From contig NZ_JAUYUS010000083.1 of the NCBI RefSeq assembly GCF_030694575.1, positions 1 to 57,338 of the forward strand: DNA of 57,338 nucleotides. The letters run 5' to 3'. Of the stretch, positions 2,233-15,331 are shown in pieces (the stretch's first letter is position 1; every line of letters starts with the position of its first letter). Under the pieces are notes generated by a model, which saw only the letters and a list, made by a program, of their open reading frames with translations, was not told the DNA's origin and did not search any database. This DNA comes from Parvibaculum sp. Lineage in GTDB: Bacteria > Pseudomonadota > Alphaproteobacteria > Parvibaculales > Parvibaculaceae. The translations under genes and the position numbers were made by a program.

Positions 2233-2269
2233 TTGACGCGCATGAGGCATGCGCATACTCTATGCGCAT
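2233..2269 (+). promoter_or_regulatory. ccdAB promoter with duplicated ATGCGCAT operator
   Basis: A sigma70-like promoter: -35 TTGACG at 2233-2238, a 17-base spacer, -10 TACTCT at 2256-2261. The self-complementary octamer ATGCGCAT occurs at 2249-2256 and again at 2262-2269, flanking the -10. CcdA-type antitoxins autoregulate by binding such sites, so this is the probable operator. The expected transcription start falls at about 2268, on the ATG of MPKKAV, so the mRNA may be leaderless. Confidence 0.6.
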
Positions 2270-2489
2270 GCCAAAGAAAGCCGTCAATCTCAGCATCGAT
2301 GCCGACCTCCTCGCCAAGGCGCGGGAGGAGGCTGTCAATCTGTCGTCCCTTTTCGAGGAAGCGCTTAAAGAGAGCATCCGGGAAAAAGAGGAACGGCGCT
2401 GGCGCGAGGAAAACAAAAAGGCCATCGACGCCTATAATGAATTCGTCGGCGAGCATGGTGTTTTCGCCGAAGGCTTCAGATCCTTCTGA
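2262..2489 (+). CDS. ccdA: CcdA-type antitoxin
   Basis: Antitoxin of a type II toxin-antitoxin pair, expected to neutralise the CcdB-like toxin next door and repress its own promoter. About 75 residues. The N-terminus KKAVNLSIDADLLAKAREEA looks like a ribbon-helix-helix DNA-binding domain; the charged C-terminus (ending FAEGFRSF) would be the disordered toxin-binding tail. Two in-frame ATGs are possible, 2262 and 2268; no well-placed Shine-Dalgarno precedes either, and the promoter geometry favours a leaderless start at 2268. The stop overlaps the toxin ATG by one base (TGATG). Confidence 0.82.
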   Translation: MRMPKKAVNLSIDADLLAKAREEAVNLSSLFEEALKESIREKEERRWREENKKAIDAYNEFVGEHGVFAEGFRSF

Positions 2490-2806
2490 TGGCGCTTTTC
2501 GACATTCATGCCAACCCCGATACCCGAACAAAAGCGGCGATCCCTTATGTCATCGAGGTGCAGGCCAATCTGCTGAGCGACCTGGGGACGAGGGTCGTCG
2601 CGCCGCTGGTACCTGCCCGGATCTTCCGTGGAGCCGTGCCCCGGCTTAATCCAACGATTCCCGTTGGTGGCGAGCCCCACGTTCTGCTCATCCAGCAACT
2701 TGCAGCCGTTCCGAAGCTCGCGCTCAACGCGCGCCCTCTCGAAAACGCGGAAGACAAGAGGTATGAGATCATCGCCGCCGTCGATTTTCTCGTGACGGGC
2801 ATCTAG
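2489..2806 (+). CDS. ccdB: CcdB-type toxin (predicted gyrase poison)
   Basis: Toxin of the pair. CcdB proteins trap DNA gyrase on DNA. The 105 residues match the family (about 100). Visible family features are the MALFDIHANPD start, GTRVVAPLVPA, PTIPVGGEPHVLLIQQLAAVP and a C-terminus ending DFLVTGI. In F-plasmid CcdB the last three residues WGI are needed for killing; here they are TGI, so gyrase poisoning is likely but not assured. Translation is coupled to ccdA by the one-base overlap. Confidence 0.85.
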   Translation: MALFDIHANPDTRTKAAIPYVIEVQANLLSDLGTRVVAPLVPARIFRGAVPRLNPTIPVGGEPHVLLIQQLAAVPKLALNARPLENAEDKRYEIIAAVDFLVTGI

Positions 2807-2816
2807 AGGAATTTTC

Positions 2817-3344
2817 ATGAGCCGCTTTTTCGGAAATGTCTGCCAGAACGGCTATGTCGTCCGAGACATCGACGCCGCCCTGAAGCACTGGACGGAAGTG
2901 CTCGGCATCGGACCCTTCTATTATATCGATCTCGTGAAATGCGACTGGTTCACCTACAAGGGCGAGCCGTCCCCCGTCGAAATGAGCATCGCGCTCGGCA
3001 ATACGGGCGACCTCCAGATCGAACTCATCCAGCAGCGCAACGACGCGCCTTCCATGTACATGGATTTCCTGAATGCGGGCCGCGAGGGCCTGCAGCACAT
3101 GTCCTACTGGACGCAGAATTATCAGGCGGATTACGACCGCGCCCTCGCCGCCGGCTACAAGGTCGGGCATGAGGGGCAGATCGGCGGGCCGCAGGGCCGC
3201 TTCGTCTATTTCGACACCGAGACGCATCCAGGCACGGTTATCGAGATGTCCGACATCAGCGGGGCGAAGGGCAAGTTCTTCGAACATATCCGCAAGGCGG
3301 CGGTGGACTGGGACGGAAAAGATCCGGTGAGGCCCGTCCGCTGA
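2817..3344 (+). CDS. VOC (glyoxalase/bleomycin-resistance fold) family protein
   Basis: A 175-residue vicinal-oxygen-chelate fold protein of unknown substrate. The N-terminal module (NGYVVRDIDAALKHWTEVLG) and second module (GREGLQHMSYWTQNY ... GGPQGRFVYFDTETHPGTVIEM) are typical of the methylmalonyl-CoA epimerase/glyoxalase-like group, with candidate metal ligands at H in LQHMSYW and E in VIEMSD. It starts 10 bases after the ccdB stop with an AGAGGAA ribosome binding site, so it may be cotranscribed with the toxin-antitoxin genes, an odd pairing. It converges with the I78 lipoprotein gene. Confidence 0.8.
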   Translation: MSRFFGNVCQNGYVVRDIDAALKHWTEVLGIGPFYYIDLVKCDWFTYKGEPSPVEMSIALGNTGDLQIELIQQRNDAPSMYMDFLNAGREGLQHMSYWTQNYQADYDRALAAGYKVGHEGQIGGPQGRFVYFDTETHPGTVIEMSDISGAKGKFFEHIRKAAVDWDGKDPVRPVR

Positions 3345-3365: not shown

Positions 3366-3908
3366 TCAGCCGCAACGGAGAGTCGCGATTTTGCCTTCCT
3401 CGTCCAGCTCGACGTTCAACCGGCCTTCGCGAAAGTCCTGCGTGACCGCATCGCCGGGACGGATCACACGCACGGTTTCGATGCCCTGACGGGCTTCGAT
3501 CGCTTCCCGAGCTTCGTCATAAGGTTGGCCGACCCACACACCGAGTGCATCGTCACCGGTCGCGGCCTCACAATCGTTGGCGGCATTGCCCGTGCCGGCG
3601 ATCGTCTGCGGATCGGTGCCTTCGGCGGCCGCTTCCTCGCCCATCGACATGTCGCCCGCGGGCAGATTGCTGTCCGGCATCTGGCTTCCGGGCATGTCGC
3701 TCGACGGCGCCGTGTTGTCCGCCATACCGGTGTTCCCCGGCGTCGCCTGGCCCGGCTGGCTCGTCATCGGAACCGCGTTGTCCACCGCCGGCATTTCTTC
3801 CGTCGTGTTCTGCGCGGCTTCCTTGTCGTTGCTGTCGTCGCATGCCGCCACTGCCAGCAGGGCGGCGACCGCCACCGTTCCGAGCAGATGCTTGGCCGAA
3901 TACTTCAT
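3366..3908 (-). CDS. Lipoprotein with I78-family peptidase-inhibitor domain
   Basis: Probable envelope lipoprotein, 180 residues. The ATG at 3908 (MKYSAKHLLGTVAVAALLAV) is chosen because a GGGAGAG site precedes it and a signal peptide with lipobox VAAC follows. After a long low-complexity Asn/Ser/Pro/Met-rich linker (about 30-110), the C-terminal 70 residues show the I78 pattern: NDCEAATGDD, LGVWVGQPYDEA, RVIRPGDAVTQDFREGRLNVELDE, final TLRCG. I78 proteins inhibit serine proteases such as elastase. The two bounding cysteines probably form a disulfide. Confidence 0.8.
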   Translation of the reverse strand: MKYSAKHLLGTVAVAALLAVAACDDSNDKEAAQNTTEEMPAVDNAVPMTSQPGQATPGNTGMADNTAPSSDMPGSQMPDSNLPAGDMSMGEEAAAEGTDPQTIAGTGNAANDCEAATGDDALGVWVGQPYDEAREAIEARQGIETVRVIRPGDAVTQDFREGRLNVELDEEGKIATLRCG

Positions 3909-4055
3909 TGTATCTCTCCCGGTTGTCGTGAGCCTCTTCGGGCGCAAGTCTTCTCCATAAATGCACCCGCGCTGAAGTGGTTCCATGATGGCGCGGCCAT
4001 TTTGTGACGCTTTGGCGCTTCCCGCCCGAATCTTCCTGCATCTGCGGGCTCCGTC

Positions 4056-4089
4056 TTGATCTCCCTTCTTTTAGTGTATATACACTAAA
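4056..4089 (+). promoter_or_regulatory. Promoter overlapped by a perfect 20-bp palindromic MarR-type operator
   Basis: -35 TTGATC at 4056-4061, a 17-base spacer and -10 TATACA at 4079-4084. The -10 lies inside a perfect 20-base palindrome at 4070-4089 whose core is GTGTA-TA-TACAC. The same core, GTGTA-GA-TACAC, covers the -10 of the nearby marR gene (5940-5955). A MarR dimer bound here would block RNA polymerase, so the downstream Fe-S/SCP2 gene is probably in that regulator's regulon. Confidence 0.72.
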
Positions 4090-4113
4090 CATGCGCAATC
4101 CCGGGAGATGGAC

Positions 4114-5481
4114 ATGGCACACGATCTGGCGGCAGGCACGGACGAGCACCCCGATGTGGCGCGCTATCGCGCCGGGCGGGCCATACAGGATAACGGCCCG
4201 CTCGCGGCCTCCTTCCTCCGCGAGCTGATGCTCGATTGCGGCGCGGACGATTGCGGCTTCGTCGCCGTCTCCGATCCTGCCATCGCAGACCAGCAGGCAT
4301 GGATCGGCGCGCTGCTCCCCGGCGCGAAGTCGCTCGTCAGCTTCGTCTGCCGGATGAACCGCGACACCGTGCGCACATCCGTCCGCTCGGTCGCGAACGA
4401 GGAATTCCACCAGACCTATGACGATGTGAACATCGTGGCGCGGAAAGCCGTGCGCAGGCTGGAAGAAATGGGCCTCGGCGCCGTCAACCCCGCCGCCGCC
4501 TTTCCGATGGAGGCGCAGGCCTATCCCGCCGGGATGCGCGTCATCTCCCACAAGCCGATCGCGGAGGCGGCCGGCCTCGGCAAGATGGGGCTCCACCGCA
4601 ACGTCATTCATCCACGCTTCGGCAGCTTCATCCTGCTCGGCACCATCGTCATCGACCGCGAGGTCGACACGGTGTCGGCGCCGCTCGACTATGCGCCCTG
4701 CCTCGACTGCAAGCTCTGCGTCGCCGCCTGCCCGGTCGAGGCCATCGGCATGGACGGTTCCTTCAACTTCTCCGCCTGCTACACGCATAACTACCGCGAA
4801 TTCATGGGCGGCTTCGTCGACTGGGTGCATCAGGTCGTCGATGCGGAGGATGCCGACGATTACGACAAGCGCGTCACGCCCGGCGAAAGCGTATCGATGT
4901 GGCAGAGCCTCTCCTTCAAGCCGGGCTACAAGGCAGCCTATTGCCTCAGCGTCTGCCCGGCCGGTTCCGACGTGCTCGGGCCCTTCATCGAAGACCGGGT
5001 CGAGTACCGCAAGCGCATCCTCGATCCGCTTCTGGCGAAGCCCGAAACCGTCTATGTGCTGAAGGGCTCCGATGCCGAGGAGAGCATTCCACAGCGGCTC
5101 AAATCGAAGGAAGTGAAGCTCGTCGACTACAACATCCCGTCCGACGATCCCTTCAGCTTCCTGTTCGGCCTCACGCTTACCTTCCAGCGCCGCAAGGCGC
5201 GCGGTCTCGACGCCACGCTCGCGCTCGTCATCGAAGACAAGGGCCCGCAACCGGCGGCCATCCGCGTGCGCCAGAGCCGCGTCGAGGTGGAATTCCAGGC
5301 GCCGGAAAAAGCGGACGCGGAATTGCGTCTGACATGGGAGACGTTGCGGAGGATTTTCCGCGACGGAATGACGGTGGAGGAAGCGGTGGCGAACTGCGGC
5401 GCAACGCTGACGGGAGACGTTGCAACGGCGCAGGCGATCCGCCGCTGCTTTCCGGTCTACCGCGTGCCGGTGGACGCCTGA
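4114..5481 (+). CDS. QueG-like 4Fe-4S protein fused to an SCP2-like domain
   Basis: A 455-residue protein of unknown reaction. Residues about 25-190 resemble the cobalamin-binding domain of epoxyqueuosine reductase/reductive dehalogenases (SHKPIAEAAGLGKMGLHRNV, FGSFILLGTIV). A ferredoxin motif CLDCKLCVAACP lies near 196-207 and further cysteines (YCLSVCPAGSD) near 275. The last 110 residues (FGLTLTFQRRK ... GMTVEEAVANCGATLTGD) look like an SCP2 sterol/lipid-binding domain. Compared with the genuine queG at 14180-15331, the region of its [10 protein letters not shown] catalytic Asp is replaced (GMRVISHKP), so tRNA epoxyqueuosine reduction is unlikely. The start at 4114 has GGGAG at the right spacing; 4108 is an alternative. 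Likely repressed by the adjacent MarR. Confidence 0.8.
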   Translation: MAHDLAAGTDEHPDVARYRAGRAIQDNGPLAASFLRELMLDCGADDCGFVAVSDPAIADQQAWIGALLPGAKSLVSFVCRMNRDTVRTSVRSVANEEFHQTYDDVNIVARKAVRRLEEMGLGAVNPAAAFPMEAQAYPAGMRVISHKPIAEAAGLGKMGLHRNVIHPRFGSFILLGTIVIDREVDTVSAPLDYAPCLDCKLCVAACPVEAIGMDGSFNFSACYTHNYREFMGGFVDWVHQVVDAEDADDYDKRVTPGESVSMWQSLSFKPGYKAAYCLSVCPAGSDVLGPFIEDRVEYRKRILDPLLAKPETVYVLKGSDAEESIPQRLKSKEVKLVDYNIPSDDPFSFLFGLTLTFQRRKARGLDATLALVIEDKGPQPAAIRVRQSRVEVEFQAPEKADAELRLTWETLRRIFRDGMTVEEAVANCGATLTGDVATAQAIRRCFPVYRVPVDA

Positions 5482-5488
5482 GCGCCGT

Positions 5489-5926
5489 TCAGCTCTTCGC
5501 TATCAACTGATGCAGCGACCTCTTCACGCCCGGCCAGTTGGCGCCGAGCGCCGTCTCCACATCGTCCTGCGCCTTGCGCCAGAGCGGCAGCGCCTGCGTC
5601 AGCTTCTTCCGCCCCGCCTTCGTAAGGGCAAGCCCCAGCGAGCGGCCCTCGCCGGTCGGCGCGGCTTCGATCAGCCCCTCGTCCTCGAGAAGCTTCACAT
5701 TGCGCACCAGGCTCGAGCGCTCCAGCGCCAGAATATCCGCCAGCGCCGTCATGGATTTCGCGCGGCCTTCCGCAATCGCGATCAGCAGCGTGAACTGCGT
5801 GATCTTCAACCCGGCCGGCTTCAGCGCCTTGTCATAGGCGCGCGTGAGCTTCCGCGCCGCCATGCGCGCCCTGAGCGCCGCGCAATTCTCGCGGACTTCG
5901 GCTTCCAGTGCTGCGGTTTCGGCCAT
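5489..5926 (-). CDS. MarR-family transcriptional regulator
   Basis: A 145-residue winged helix-turn-helix repressor. The helix-turn-helix region spans KITQFTLLIAIAEG to SMTALADILALERSSLVRNVKLLEDEGLIE, the wing EAAPTGEGRSLGLALTKAG, and the flanking helices form the dimer interface. The ATG at 5926 has AGGAG 6 bases upstream. It converges with the QueG-like/SCP2 gene (7-base gap) and lies downstream of the LLM oxidoreductase on the same strand. Operators of the same sequence lie over its own promoter and over that of the QueG-like gene. The ligand is unknown. Confidence 0.88.
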   Translation of the reverse strand: MAETAALEAEVRENCAALRARMAARKLTRAYDKALKPAGLKITQFTLLIAIAEGRAKSMTALADILALERSSLVRNVKLLEDEGLIEAAPTGEGRSLGLALTKAGRKKLTQALPLWRKAQDDVETALGANWPGVKRSLHQLIAKS

Positions 5927-5939
5927 CGGAGGCTCCTTC

Positions 5940-5980
5940 TCGTGTAGATACACGATACTCAAGCCCGCGCCGCCGCGCAA
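5940..5980 (-). promoter_or_regulatory. marR promoter and autoregulatory operator
   Basis: On the minus strand, -35 TTGCGC (5975-5980), a 17-base spacer and -10 TATCGT (5952-5957). An inverted repeat TCGTGTA-GA-TACACGA occupies 5940-5955 and covers the -10. It shares GTGTA-N2-TACAC with the palindrome at 4070-4089. This is the expected layout for negative autoregulation. Confidence 0.65.
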
Positions 5981-5999
5981 CACGGAGCCGAGGTGGCGG

Positions 6000-7247
6000 C
6001 TACTCCGCCGCGCTCGTCTGGTTGACCTGTGCCTGTTTCACAGACGCCTTCACCACCGGCACCTCGTCCCGCTCCAGCGGACGCATCCAGTTTTTCCGCT
6101 TCAGGGCAGCCTCGATGTAAGGCGCAAGTTCCGCCTGCTTCTTCGCTTCGCGCGCGGCCGCTTCCTTCTTGAACTCCGGCATCACCTTGGCCGCGAAGAG
6201 TTCCAGCGACTCGCAGATGTCCGAATGCTTGTTGCGGCCGGCTTGCTGCATGAAGATCACCTGGTCGACGCCCGCATCCTGGAATGCACGAAGATGGGCG
6301 CGCATGTCGTCCGGCGTGCCGATGCCGGTCGCGATGGCCTCAGCGCGTTTCGCGGCGTCGATCACTTCCTGCGTGCGGTTGCCGCGCGCCTTGATGTAGT
6401 CGCCCCACATGTCGGTACGGCCGGGCACCGTGTCGTGCGCGACCAGCGCGTTCAGCGCATAACCGAAGAACTCGAAGCCCTCATGGCCGCGGCGGATCGC
6501 CTCCGCGCGGTCTTCGTGCAGCGAGAAGTTCGACACCATCGCGATATTGGCGTTCACCGTATGGCCGATCGGCTTGCACTCGTCCGATTTGATGATGCCG
6601 TAATAGATTTCCGACCAGGCCTTCGCCTCTTCCGGATCGACAAAGGAGAAGGCGAGCGCGCCGACGCCGAGCGACGCGGCCACGCGGATCGTGTCGCGAT
6701 TGGTGCAGGCCATCCACATCGGCGGATGGGGGCGCTGCACCGGCTTCGGCAGCACGTTGCGGCAGGGCATGGAGAAATATTTGCCCTCGAAGCCGGGATA
6801 AGGCTCATGCACCATCATGTTGGCGATCTGCTCGCCGGCCTCGATGGCCATGGCGCGCTTTTCCTTCGCGGGAATGTTGAAGCCGCCAAGCTCCAGCCGC
6901 GTCGCGCCTTCGCCGATGCCGAATTCGACGCGCCCGTTTGACATGATGTCGAGCGTTGCGAGGCCTTCGGCCGTTCGGGCTGGGTGATTGTAGTTCGGGA
7001 TGACCTGGCGGATGCCGTGACCGAGGCGGATGTTCTTCGTCACCGACGCGGCGGCGGCGAGAAAAACCTCCGGCGCGGAGGAGTGCGAATATTCGTCGAG
7101 GAAATGATGCTCGACTTCCCATGCGTGGTCGTAACCGAGCCGGTCTGCGAGCACGATCTGCTCAAGCGCCTCGTGGAAAAGCCTGTGCTCGTCGCCTTCG
7201 TTCCACGGCCTCGGCAATTGCAGCTCGTAAAATACTCCGAACTTCAT
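6000..7247 (-). CDS. LLM-class flavin-dependent oxidoreductase
   Basis: A bacterial-luciferase-like monooxygenase of 415 residues that would use reduced FMN/F420-type flavin and O2. Family signs are MKFGVFYELQLPRPW, the HAWEVEHHF segment, the IRLGHGIRQVIPNYNHPARTAE strand and SNGRVEFGIGEGATR. The long C-terminal tail (from about 365) is rich in Lys/Ala. Substrate unknown; relatives act on alkanes, aldehydes or xenobiotics. A GGGGAGAGAG site precedes the ATG. It is on the same strand as, and upstream of, the MarR gene, which has its own promoter; no GTGTA-N2-TACAC box is visible upstream of this gene. Confidence 0.88.
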   Translation of the reverse strand: MKFGVFYELQLPRPWNEGDEHRLFHEALEQIVLADRLGYDHAWEVEHHFLDEYSHSSAPEVFLAAAASVTKNIRLGHGIRQVIPNYNHPARTAEGLATLDIMSNGRVEFGIGEGATRLELGGFNIPAKEKRAMAIEAGEQIANMMVHEPYPGFEGKYFSMPCRNVLPKPVQRPHPPMWMACTNRDTIRVAASLGVGALAFSFVDPEEAKAWSEIYYGIIKSDECKPIGHTVNANIAMVSNFSLHEDRAEAIRRGHEGFEFFGYALNALVAHDTVPGRTDMWGDYIKARGNRTQEVIDAAKRAEAIATGIGTPDDMRAHLRAFQDAGVDQVIFMQQAGRNKHSDICESLELFAAKVMPEFKKEAAAREAKKQAELAPYIEAALKRKNWMRPLERDEVPVVKASVKQAQVNQTSAAE

Positions 7248-13436: not shown

Positions 13437-14195
13437 ATGAAACACAGCGCCCACGTCTTTCCCGCCCTTTTCGCTCTTGCCATCGCCCTCGCAGCCGGAA
13501 CGGCGCGCGCGGAGGAGGAGACGAGCTACGACGCCTGCATCGGCCTCGTCGCGGACGATCCCGCCGCCGCGCTCAACATGGCGCAGAACCTGAAGCTCAA
13601 GGGCGGCGGCGACGAGGCGGGCGGCATGCATTGCGAGGCGCTGGCCCTGATGGGGATGGGCCGCGCCGGCGAAGCGGGCAGCGCCTTCTTCGATCTCGCC
13701 GAGCGGATGCTGAATGCGGACGACGCCATGCGTTCGGAAATCTATGCGCAGGCGGGCGACGCATGGGCGATTGCCGGTTCTCCGAAGCTCGCCATCCGCG
13801 CCTATGACAATGCCATCGCGCGGATGCCGGAAGACGCCACCTATTATGCGGGCCGCGCGCGCGTGAAGGCGATCGCGAAGGACTGGACCGGCGTGCGCGA
13901 CGATGCCGCGGAGGCGCTCGCGCTCGATCCGCATTATCCCGAGCCGATGCTTCTCCGTTCCGCCGCCAACCGGACGCTCGGCTATCCGCGCGCCTCGCTG
14001 GTCGATGCGAACCACGCGGTCGAACTCCGCCCGCACAGTCTCGACGCGCTGCTCGAACGCGGCCTCGTCCACAAGGCGCTGGGCGACAAGCACAGCGCCT
14101 GGGGCGACTGGAACACGCTGCTGCGCTACGCGAAGCAGACCGGGCAGGAAAACCATCCCGCCGCCGTCGCCGCGCGGGACTATCTCAAGCAATAG
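13437..14195 (+). CDS. Exported tetratricopeptide-repeat protein
   Basis: A 252-residue secreted protein. A signal peptide ends near TARAEEE. After it, repeated helix pairs ([95 protein letters not shown]) are TPR units. Such proteins scaffold protein contacts in the periplasm; the partner is unknown. Its 3' end overlaps that of queG by 16 bases on the opposite strand. Confidence 0.85.
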
Positions 14196-15331
14196 TCCCA
14201 CTCTTCCCGCACGCCCTCGTCCGTTTCCGTTCGGAGCGCGGCCTGTGCCTGCGCGCGCAACGCATCGCCCTCTCCGAGACGGGAAAGCGCCCAGATCGCC
14301 ATGGCGCGCACGAGCGGCGAGGCATCATCGAGCAGCGGCAGCGCAACGGGCACGAGCGATTTCTCGCCCGAATTGCCGATCGCTATCAGCACGTTCCGCA
14401 CGAAACGGTCGCGGCCGATGCGCTTGATCGGCGAGCCCGAAAAGAAAGCGCGGAACGACGGGTCGTCGAGCCGCGCAAGGTCCGCCAGCAGCGGCGCGCG
14501 CAGTTCGTCGCGCGGATGAAACGCATCTTCCCGCGCGAGGCTCGCGAACTTGTTCCAGGGGCAGACGGCGAGGCAGTCGTCGCAACCATAGATGCGGTTG
14601 CCCATCGGTGCGCGGAATTCGCGCGCAATGTGCCCCTTGTGCTCGATGGTGAGATAGGAGATGCAGCGCCGCGCATCGAGTTCATAAGGCGCGGGGAAGG
14701 CTTTCGTCGGACAGACGTCGAGGCAGCGGCGGCACTCGCCGCAGCGGTCGTCATGCCTCTCGTCGGCCTCGAACTCCAATGTCGTGAAGATAGAGCCGAG
14801 AAAGAACCACGAGCCGAGATTGCGCGAGACGAGGTTCGTGTGCTTGCCCTGCCAGCCGAGACCGGCGGCTTCCGCCAGCGGCTTTTCCATCACGGGCGCC
14901 GTATCGACGAAGACCTTCACCTCCGCGCCGCTCGTCTCCGCCAGCCAGCGCGCCACCTGTTTCAGCCGCTTCTTGACGAGGTCGTGATAGTCGCGGTTCT
15001 GCGCGTAAGCGGAGATCGCCGCGCGGTCGCGCTGTTCCAGAATTTTCAACGGATCGGTATCCGGCCCGTAATTCATCGCCAGCATGATGACGGATTTCGC
15101 CTCGGGCCAGAGTGTCGCCGGCGCCGCGCGCCGCGCCGCCGTCTCCGCCATCCAGTCCATGCCGCCGTGGCGGCCCTGCTTCAGCCACTTGTCCAGCCGC
15201 GCCGGCAGGTCGTCCCGCGCATCGGCGCGCGCGATGCCGGCATCGTCGAAGCCCGCCTCCTTCGCGCGGGCGAGAAGCTCGCCGCGCAATGCGTTCAGCT
15301 CTTTCGGGCGGTCAGAAATCGAGATTGGCAT
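14180..15331 (-). CDS. queG: Epoxyqueuosine reductase
   Basis: Last step of queuosine synthesis: cobalamin-dependent reduction of epoxyqueuosine to queuosine at position 34 of tRNAs. 383 residues. The catalytic Asp sits in [18 protein letters not shown]; two 4Fe-4S clusters are given by [12 protein letters not shown] and CDDCLAVCP (with [11 protein letters not shown] between); the C-terminal 90 residues form HEAT-like repeats. The ATG at 15331 ([12 protein letters not shown]) overlaps the 3' end of the GST gene by 20 bases. Last gene of the NDUFA9-cueR-gst-queG set. Confidence 0.96.

Follow-up and report, generated by a model that had tools for sequence, protein, structure and literature searches.

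A protein family that joins a QueG- and reductive dehalogenase-like scaffold to an SCP2-fold domain, encoded beside a putative MarR switch

The stretch of DNA that we analyzed, hereafter the window, is a 57,338-nucleotide contig from Parvibaculum sp. An ORF call on the window placed the gene under study on the plus strand at 4108-5481, stop codon included, with a predicted product of 457 amino acids. Two in-frame ATG codons are present at 4108 and 4114. Because GGGAG was seen by eye at 4103-4107, ATG 4114 is the likelier start, and the gene is given here as 4114-5481 on the basis of the ORF and of profile and fold matches; residue numbers count from ATG 4108. Along the protein, fold comparison and residue counts delimited an N-terminal domain of the cobalamin-binding, nitroreductase-like type (residues ~31-196; 4198-4695, plus strand), which holds E99-F100-H101 and AGLGxMGxHR. 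A ferredoxin segment containing C198, C201, C204, C208, C224, C279 and C283 (residues 198-284; 4699-4959, plus strand) was assigned by alignment, in a region where the predicted structure is of low confidence, and fold comparison and Pfam identified an SCP2-fold domain with a near-invariant Cys447 (residues 345-449; 5140-5454, plus strand). The AEAAGLGKMGLHRN motif and the CLDCKLCVAACP that the original prediction had ascribed to this protein are both present in the ORF, and the genuine queG that it had reported in the same window is there as well, at 14180-15331 (TIGR00276, 459.5 bits vs a cut-off of 200).

A MarR-family repressor gene occupies 5489-5926 on the minus strand (PF12802, E 3.8e-9). 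Its ORF opens at 5983, and by eye translation probably begins with the ATG of MAETAAL, at 5926. A motif search revealed a perfect 20-bp palindrome, TTTAGTGTATATACACTAAA, at 4070-4089, which is a putative MarR operator of the enzyme gene, and a second operator-like copy, TCGTGTA-GA-TACACGA, upstream of marR at 5940-5955. No sigma-70-like promoter was found in 3950-6100. On the other side of the enzyme gene, and divergent from it, lies a gene for a small peptidase-inhibitor I78 protein (3366-3986, minus strand; PF11720 E 7.2e-18), and the window also contains a Glyoxalase/VOC-superfamily gene (2817-3344, plus strand; PF13669 E 2.8e-20) and a chromosomal CcdA/CcdB toxin-antitoxin pair (2268-2806, plus strand; PF07362 E 2.6e-27, PF01845 E 8.1e-24).

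TIGR00276 (QueG) was the best named NCBIfam model for the QueG-like/SCP2 protein, matching residues 146-225 with 52.2 bits, under the equivalog cut-off of 200, and the reductive dehalogenase model TIGR02486 gave 28.9 bits against a cut-off of 160.35. QueG_DUF1730 (PF08331) and the C-terminal HEAT model, both of which match true QueG, had no match in the protein at E<=1. A PDB sequence search matched QueG 5d6s with E 5e-8 for the single sequence and 9e-11 for a 26-member profile, and a profile-profile alignment with QueG gave E 6.6e-12. Two AlphaFold2 models of the protein, with mean pLDDT values of 65.9 and 69.5, agreed in their fold matches. When the predicted structure was compared by VIA-align, residues 31-204 superimposed on QueG 5d6s with Z 12.6 (rmsd 3.3 over 156 positions) and on NpRdhA 6zy0 with Z 12.3 (rmsd 3.0 over 162 positions). 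Across both models, Z was 12.3-12.7 for NpRdhA, 12.2-12.6 for QueG, and about 10.6-12.7 for RdhA structures including PceA. These matches bore out the cobalamin/Fe-S type of redox scaffold that had been predicted. The order that marks class III cobalamin enzymes, in which a ferredoxin segment comes after a nitroreductase-like cobalamin-binding fold, is found here, with the ferredoxin part read from its Cys motifs only. That part was poorly predicted (pLDDT mostly below 50 within 199-237 and 256-290), and because both models leave most of it unresolved, Cys447 and the cofactors could not be placed. With QueG (TIGR00276; 5d6s, 5d08) the family shares the N-terminal fold, the AGxGxxG segment, CxxCxxCxxxCP and a later CxxxCP; with RdhA (TIGR02486; NpRdhA 6zy0, PceA 4uqu) it shares the domain fold, the Fe-S motif and the lack of the QueG Asp.

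The SCP2 model PF02036 matched residues 362-447 of this protein with E 0.0021 and 18.8 bits, below the Pfam cut-off of 21.3. At E<=0.01 it matched 22 of 26 family members, this protein included, with a best E of 2.2e-12, and a Priestia member reached 42.7 bits. By VIA-align on the predicted structure, residues 345-449 matched the Pisa1 alkylsulfatase 2yhe with Z 15.6 and rmsd 1.7 (104 positions) and MFE-2 1ikt, in its SCP2-like domain, with Z 12.4 and rmsd 2.8 (106 positions). The profile search across the family and the fold match thus sustain the C-terminal SCP2 domain of the original prediction. Its closest known relatives, the C-terminal domain of Pisa1 (2yhe) and the MFE-2 SCP2L domain (1ikt), share the fold over ~105 residues; unlike them, the domain studied here carries a near-invariant Cys at its last helix and is fused to a redox domain.

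The gene was found in 19 of 40 genomes within the same taxonomic family (E<=1e-30), in 7 of 398 genomes of a phylum sample (E<=1e-20), where all matches came from the window's own class, and in 13 of 385 genomes of a class sample (E<=1e-20). It was also present in 5 of 188 genomes from the phylum of Nannocystis, Myxococcota, and in 4 of 199 from that of Geothrix, Acidobacteriota (both at E<=1e-40); the query or centre genome is included in every one of these counts. Three of 72,556 plasmid records matched (E<=1e-20), one in Nostoc sp. C052 and two in Priestia megaterium, and viral contigs scanned with two peptide patterns yielded no family member. In all we collected 46 distinct members: 19 from the same-family genomes, 6 new ones from the phylum sample, 7 from the class sample, 4 from a further search, 4 from the Nannocystis phylum, 3 from the Geothrix phylum and 3 from plasmids. 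Residue counts were made on 35 of the 46, excluding a contig-end fragment (L042), a sequence with no open frame containing the motif (L084) and nine close same-family relatives; near-duplicates within the 35 are L116/L117, L058-L060 (one genus) and L050/L051/L054.

In a midpoint-rooted FastTree tree of the shared region, these 35 members clustered with one another and separately from the 3 QueG and 28 dehalogenase-like sequences included (29 were fetched, and L097 was dropped because it had no motif). Support for the family node was low (0.316), and L048 and L080/L081 branched near the family base. The original description of the protein as a QueG paralogue that had lost a residue is not supported by this tree, in which the family has its own branch, albeit at low node support, nor by the differences described below, which affect the Tyr position and one ligand of a cluster. 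We give hardly any credence to an ordinary QueG paralogue acting in queuosine synthesis: TIGR00276 is indeed the best named model, but the score of 52.2 bits against 200, the missing QueG_DUF1730 and HEAT matches, and the presence of QueG or QueH besides the family member all speak against it. A separate QueG was found in 25 of 27 host genomes, and the remaining two (G540 and G712) have QueH, as does G634, a genome of the same genus outside the 27-host QueG search. Because the hosts carry a separate QueG or QueH, queuosine is probably accounted for by other enzymes, and we rejected a role in its synthesis. PF02310 B12-binding proteins were found in all 27 hosts, a weak test because they also occur in 12 of 14 control genomes.

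PMC4646009 assigns Cys184, 187, 190 and 243 of S. thermophilus QueG to the distal cluster and Cys194, 210, 236 and 239 to the cobalamin-side cluster. It places Asp100-Tyr101-His102 and Asp130 in the active site, describes the Tyr as common to QueG and RdhA, and gives Asn at the position of Asp130 in S. multivorans RdhA. Asp and Tyr are the two proton donors proposed for QueG. When mapped by alignment to QueG, the distal-cluster cysteines C198, C201, C204 and C283 and the proximal-cluster cysteines C208, C224 and C279 were each present in 35 of 35 members. The fourth proximal ligand falls in column 276, which is Ala in 32 of the 35 and Cys in three (L048, L080 and L081), compared with Cys in 28/28 dehalogenase-like sequences and 3/3 QueG. 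Hence, of the eight cysteines called for by two [4Fe-4S] clusters, this protein has seven in register and Ala276 in the remaining place. Cys447, which closes the SCP2 domain, was present in 32 of 35 members, the exceptions being L079, L080 and L081. A strict trade of Cys276 for Cys447 was ruled out, since L048 has both and L079 neither. The distant sister group L080 and L081, which has a longer N-terminus, E-L-Y for E-F-H, Cys276 and no Cys447, perhaps represents an ancestral form.

Both the profile-profile and the MAFFT alignments set the QueG Asp opposite Gly142, and column 142 holds Asp in 3 of 35 members, all of one genus, and another residue in the other 32. The catalytic Asp that the protein was said to have lost is therefore absent after proper alignment; speaking of a loss is not apt, because that would make QueG the ancestor, for which the data give no evidence; S. 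multivorans RdhA has Asn there. The three members with Asp (L058, L059 and L060) read 'GDTIP', which resembles 'VDTAP' of QueG; in their genus QueG was absent from the two genomes tested and QueH was present in 3/3. In the same two alignments, D-Y-H of QueG reads E99 (35/35), F100 (33/35) and H101 (32/35), but in a joint alignment with dehalogenases the QueG D-Y-H lies off columns 99-101, so that the E-F-H register is not certain. The dehalogenase Tyr falls on column 104 of the joint alignment, again in an uncertain register, and that column is Tyr in 18 of 35 members, including this protein. As aligned, the Tyr is not constant across the QueG-like/SCP2 family, whichever register is used. Glu135, Arg164, His168, His227 and Tyr229 were each conserved in 35/35, as were G156, G158, G161 and G172. 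Three other changes, namely the missing ligand of the cobalamin-side cluster, E-F-H for D-Y-H in the profile alignment and Cys447, say no less about the family than the missing Asp does.

With one cluster ligand missing and the proton donors changed, the chemistry cannot be transferred directly from QueG or RdhA and may be cobalamin-free. Site-differentiated clusters bind and reduce substrates in other enzymes of the IspG/IspH type. A cobalamin-free Fe-S enzyme on the class III scaffold, in which the substrate would occupy the former corrin site and be bound and reduced by the open iron of the cluster with three Cys ligands, is a real but minor possibility. Ala276 in 32/35, against Cys in all dehalogenase-like and QueG sequences, would suit such an enzyme, as would the changed QueG proton donors. 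So would Cys447, which is present in 32/35 and might complete the cluster or itself react with the substrate; two of the three sequences that lack it (L080 and L081) keep Cys276. Weighing against a cobalamin-free enzyme are the imperfect trade between the two cysteines (L048, L079), the ferredoxin region that the models leave unplaced, and the Gly-rich segment, which packs near the corrin in the QueG/dehalogenase fold, is common to QueG and dehalogenases and is kept in 35/35.

It seems unlikely to us that the family represents a novel type of reductive dehalogenase, aerobic and cytosolic, that handles lipophilic halogenated compounds. The structural likeness to NpRdhA (Z 12.3-12.7) equals that to QueG (Z 12.2-12.6), Tyr104 of this protein stands in the dehalogenase Tyr column, and the scattered, partly plasmid-borne distribution with a regulator alongside would agree with such a function. 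However, the protein scored 28.9 bits on TIGR02486 where 160.35 is the cut-off, column 104 is Tyr in only 18/35 members, and none of the 28 dehalogenase-like sequences grouped with the family.

The regulatory arrangement recurs across the family. Neighbourhoods were counted at 34 of the 46 loci, members on short contigs or with little flank being excluded. A MarR gene lay within 130 bases of the enzyme gene in 23 of the 34, and L041 had one more at 2 kb. Among the 11 loci that lack an adjacent MarR, six have another regulator beside the enzyme gene, either TetR within 440 bases (L039, L043, L072, L116 and L117) or HxlR at 7 bases (L045), whereas regulator queries at L044, L048, L049 and L115 found none next to it. 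The replacement of MarR by TetR or HxlR fits an inducible, stand-alone enzyme. One N-terminal Cys, a possible sensor thiol, was common to all 22 MarR proteins aligned.

Sequences with one mismatch at most to TGTATATACA occurred twice in the window, compared with 0.03 expected, and none of 100 shuffles had two. In the 3.8-Mb genome, TMGTGTANATACACKA with up to two mismatches occurred at three places, and only those before the enzyme gene and before marR were free of mismatches; the third, with two, is at chance level, because a control pattern matched 8 times on each strand. We then counted sites in the 150 bases ahead of the enzyme gene at 31 of the 34 neighbourhood loci, excluding the three plasmid loci. 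With a cut of four mismatches to AGTGTATATACACT that was chosen after the scores had been seen, and with a consensus derived from the window, a site was present at 17 of 23 MarR-adjacent loci vs 1 of 8 others. The latter, L049, has no MarR in the flanking stretch covered. For 16 of the 17 site-bearing loci, random stretches of the same loci reached the observed score in 0-5% of draws. The site at L053 emerged after a start correction, without a control, and the same correction at L051 produced no site. Six of the 23 MarR-adjacent loci had no site with up to four mismatches before the enzyme gene, although in one of these, L038, such a site precedes marR. The window's genus contributes loci that are not independent of each other; L050, L052-L055, L069, L070 and L073 represent other genera. 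The pairing of the genes and the palindromes before both of them form the pattern of a putative autoregulated MarR switch, and MarR looks like a dedicated on/off switch of the enzyme gene. The link to MarR in the original prediction is thus borne out by adjacency in 23/34 loci and by the common operator-like palindrome.

This was not so for the LLM oxidoreductase with which the gene had also been linked. It occurred at 6 of the 34 loci, all in the window's genus, and was absent from three loci of that same genus (L034, L035 and L049). No copy of the palindrome motif lies in front of the LLM gene, and we rejected it as a partner. The other non-regulator neighbours vary, for example NmrA-like (L041, L044), acyl-CoA dehydrogenase (L036) and SDR (L049, L071) genes, and in the lineages compared, with some of the neighbour genes run against Pfam, we saw no common catabolic neighbour that would name a substrate. 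At L050-L054, which belong to one genus of the same family (e.g., L051:9844-11132), a further gene follows the enzyme gene and marR, and in L050 it matches CDP-alcohol phosphatidyltransferase (PF01066 E 4.6e-6). The tight regulator pairing (23/34) and the changes at known catalytic residues might also suggest a non-catalytic or sensory partner of MarR, lipid- and redox-binding, that titrates the MarR inducer. We consider this very unlikely, because Cys, His, Glu and Arg positions are strictly conserved over several phyla, and the replacement of MarR by TetR or HxlR speaks for an enzyme with exchangeable control.

We tentatively favor, as a reading that falls a little short of probable, an undescribed class-III-cobalamin-like reductase under the control of its own repressor that would act on a hydrophobic, probably electrophilic substrate; its cofactor, substrate and reaction are inferred. 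The enzyme is probably inducible, because the neighbouring MarR looks like its dedicated switch. In this compact two-gene system, the MarR repressor would bind two TGTATATACA-centred palindromes, one in front of each gene, a step well supported by the sequence, and a small molecule or a modification of the conserved N-terminal Cys would release it. Once induced, the soluble enzyme would accept a hydrophobic molecule into its SCP2 domain. Judging from the fold and the conserved motifs, which also underlie the proposed presence of cobalamin, base-off cobalamin in the QueG/RdhA-type domain could reductively attack the substrate with electrons fed by two Fe-S clusters, for example to strip a halogen or oxygen from a chain or ring that bears an epoxide, halide or hydroxy group. 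Against a class III reading, neither QueG proton donor is kept (Asp is absent in 32/35, and the Tyr is Phe100 in the QueG register or, in the dehalogenase register, falls on a column that is Tyr in 18/35) and the proximal cluster is one Cys short. The family would accordingly differ from QueG in its candidate acids (Glu99, Glu135, His168 and His227, each 35/35) and, with three Cys ligands instead of four at the proximal cluster, would stand as a third branch alongside QueG and the reductive dehalogenases. That the fourth ligand of this cluster in such a third class III branch is open or unusual, possibly supplied by Cys447 from the SCP2 domain so that substrate delivery is coupled to cluster chemistry, is decidedly unlikely in our estimation.

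Two kinds of class III cobalamin enzyme, QueG and RdhA, are counted in the accessible parts of PMC4646009 and PMC10463259. The family is set apart from QueG by the absence of a DUF1730 match, HEAT and the Asp, by E-F-H for D-Y-H in the profile alignment, by the shortage of one proximal-cluster Cys, by the added SCP2 domain and by the MarR alongside. It differs from RdhA in scoring far below the TIGR02486 cut-off, in the missing cluster Cys, in its SCP2 domain and in its own tree branch. The scaffold and the SCP2 domain are already known; what appears to be new is their joining, together with the altered cluster and a switch that looks dedicated to the enzyme. No description of a QueG-like or dehalogenase-like fusion with SCP2 was found in the part of the open-licence PMC literature that the searches returned to us. 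If the reading of a third branch is true, the chemistry known for this scaffold would become broader, through a branch that has a built-in domain for lipid binding, an unusual cluster and a switch of its own. The MarR switch would also provide a handle on the substrate, as the molecule that releases the repressor is likely to be the substrate or a lookalike, and the 20-bp operator and two-gene design would lend themselves to a simple screen for that molecule.

The NCBI entries WP_098239721.1 and WP_256875308.1, named 'SCP2 sterol-binding domain-containing protein', are family members, 45-47% identical over 96-97% of the protein, and the name covers the C-terminal domain only. Two papers that use this name list such a gene by locus tag. 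The plasmid records give the family member the same name. On the two Priestia megaterium plasmids (L116 and L117), the gene lies beside genes for TetR, an ABC transporter permease, SDR, fabF and MaoC.
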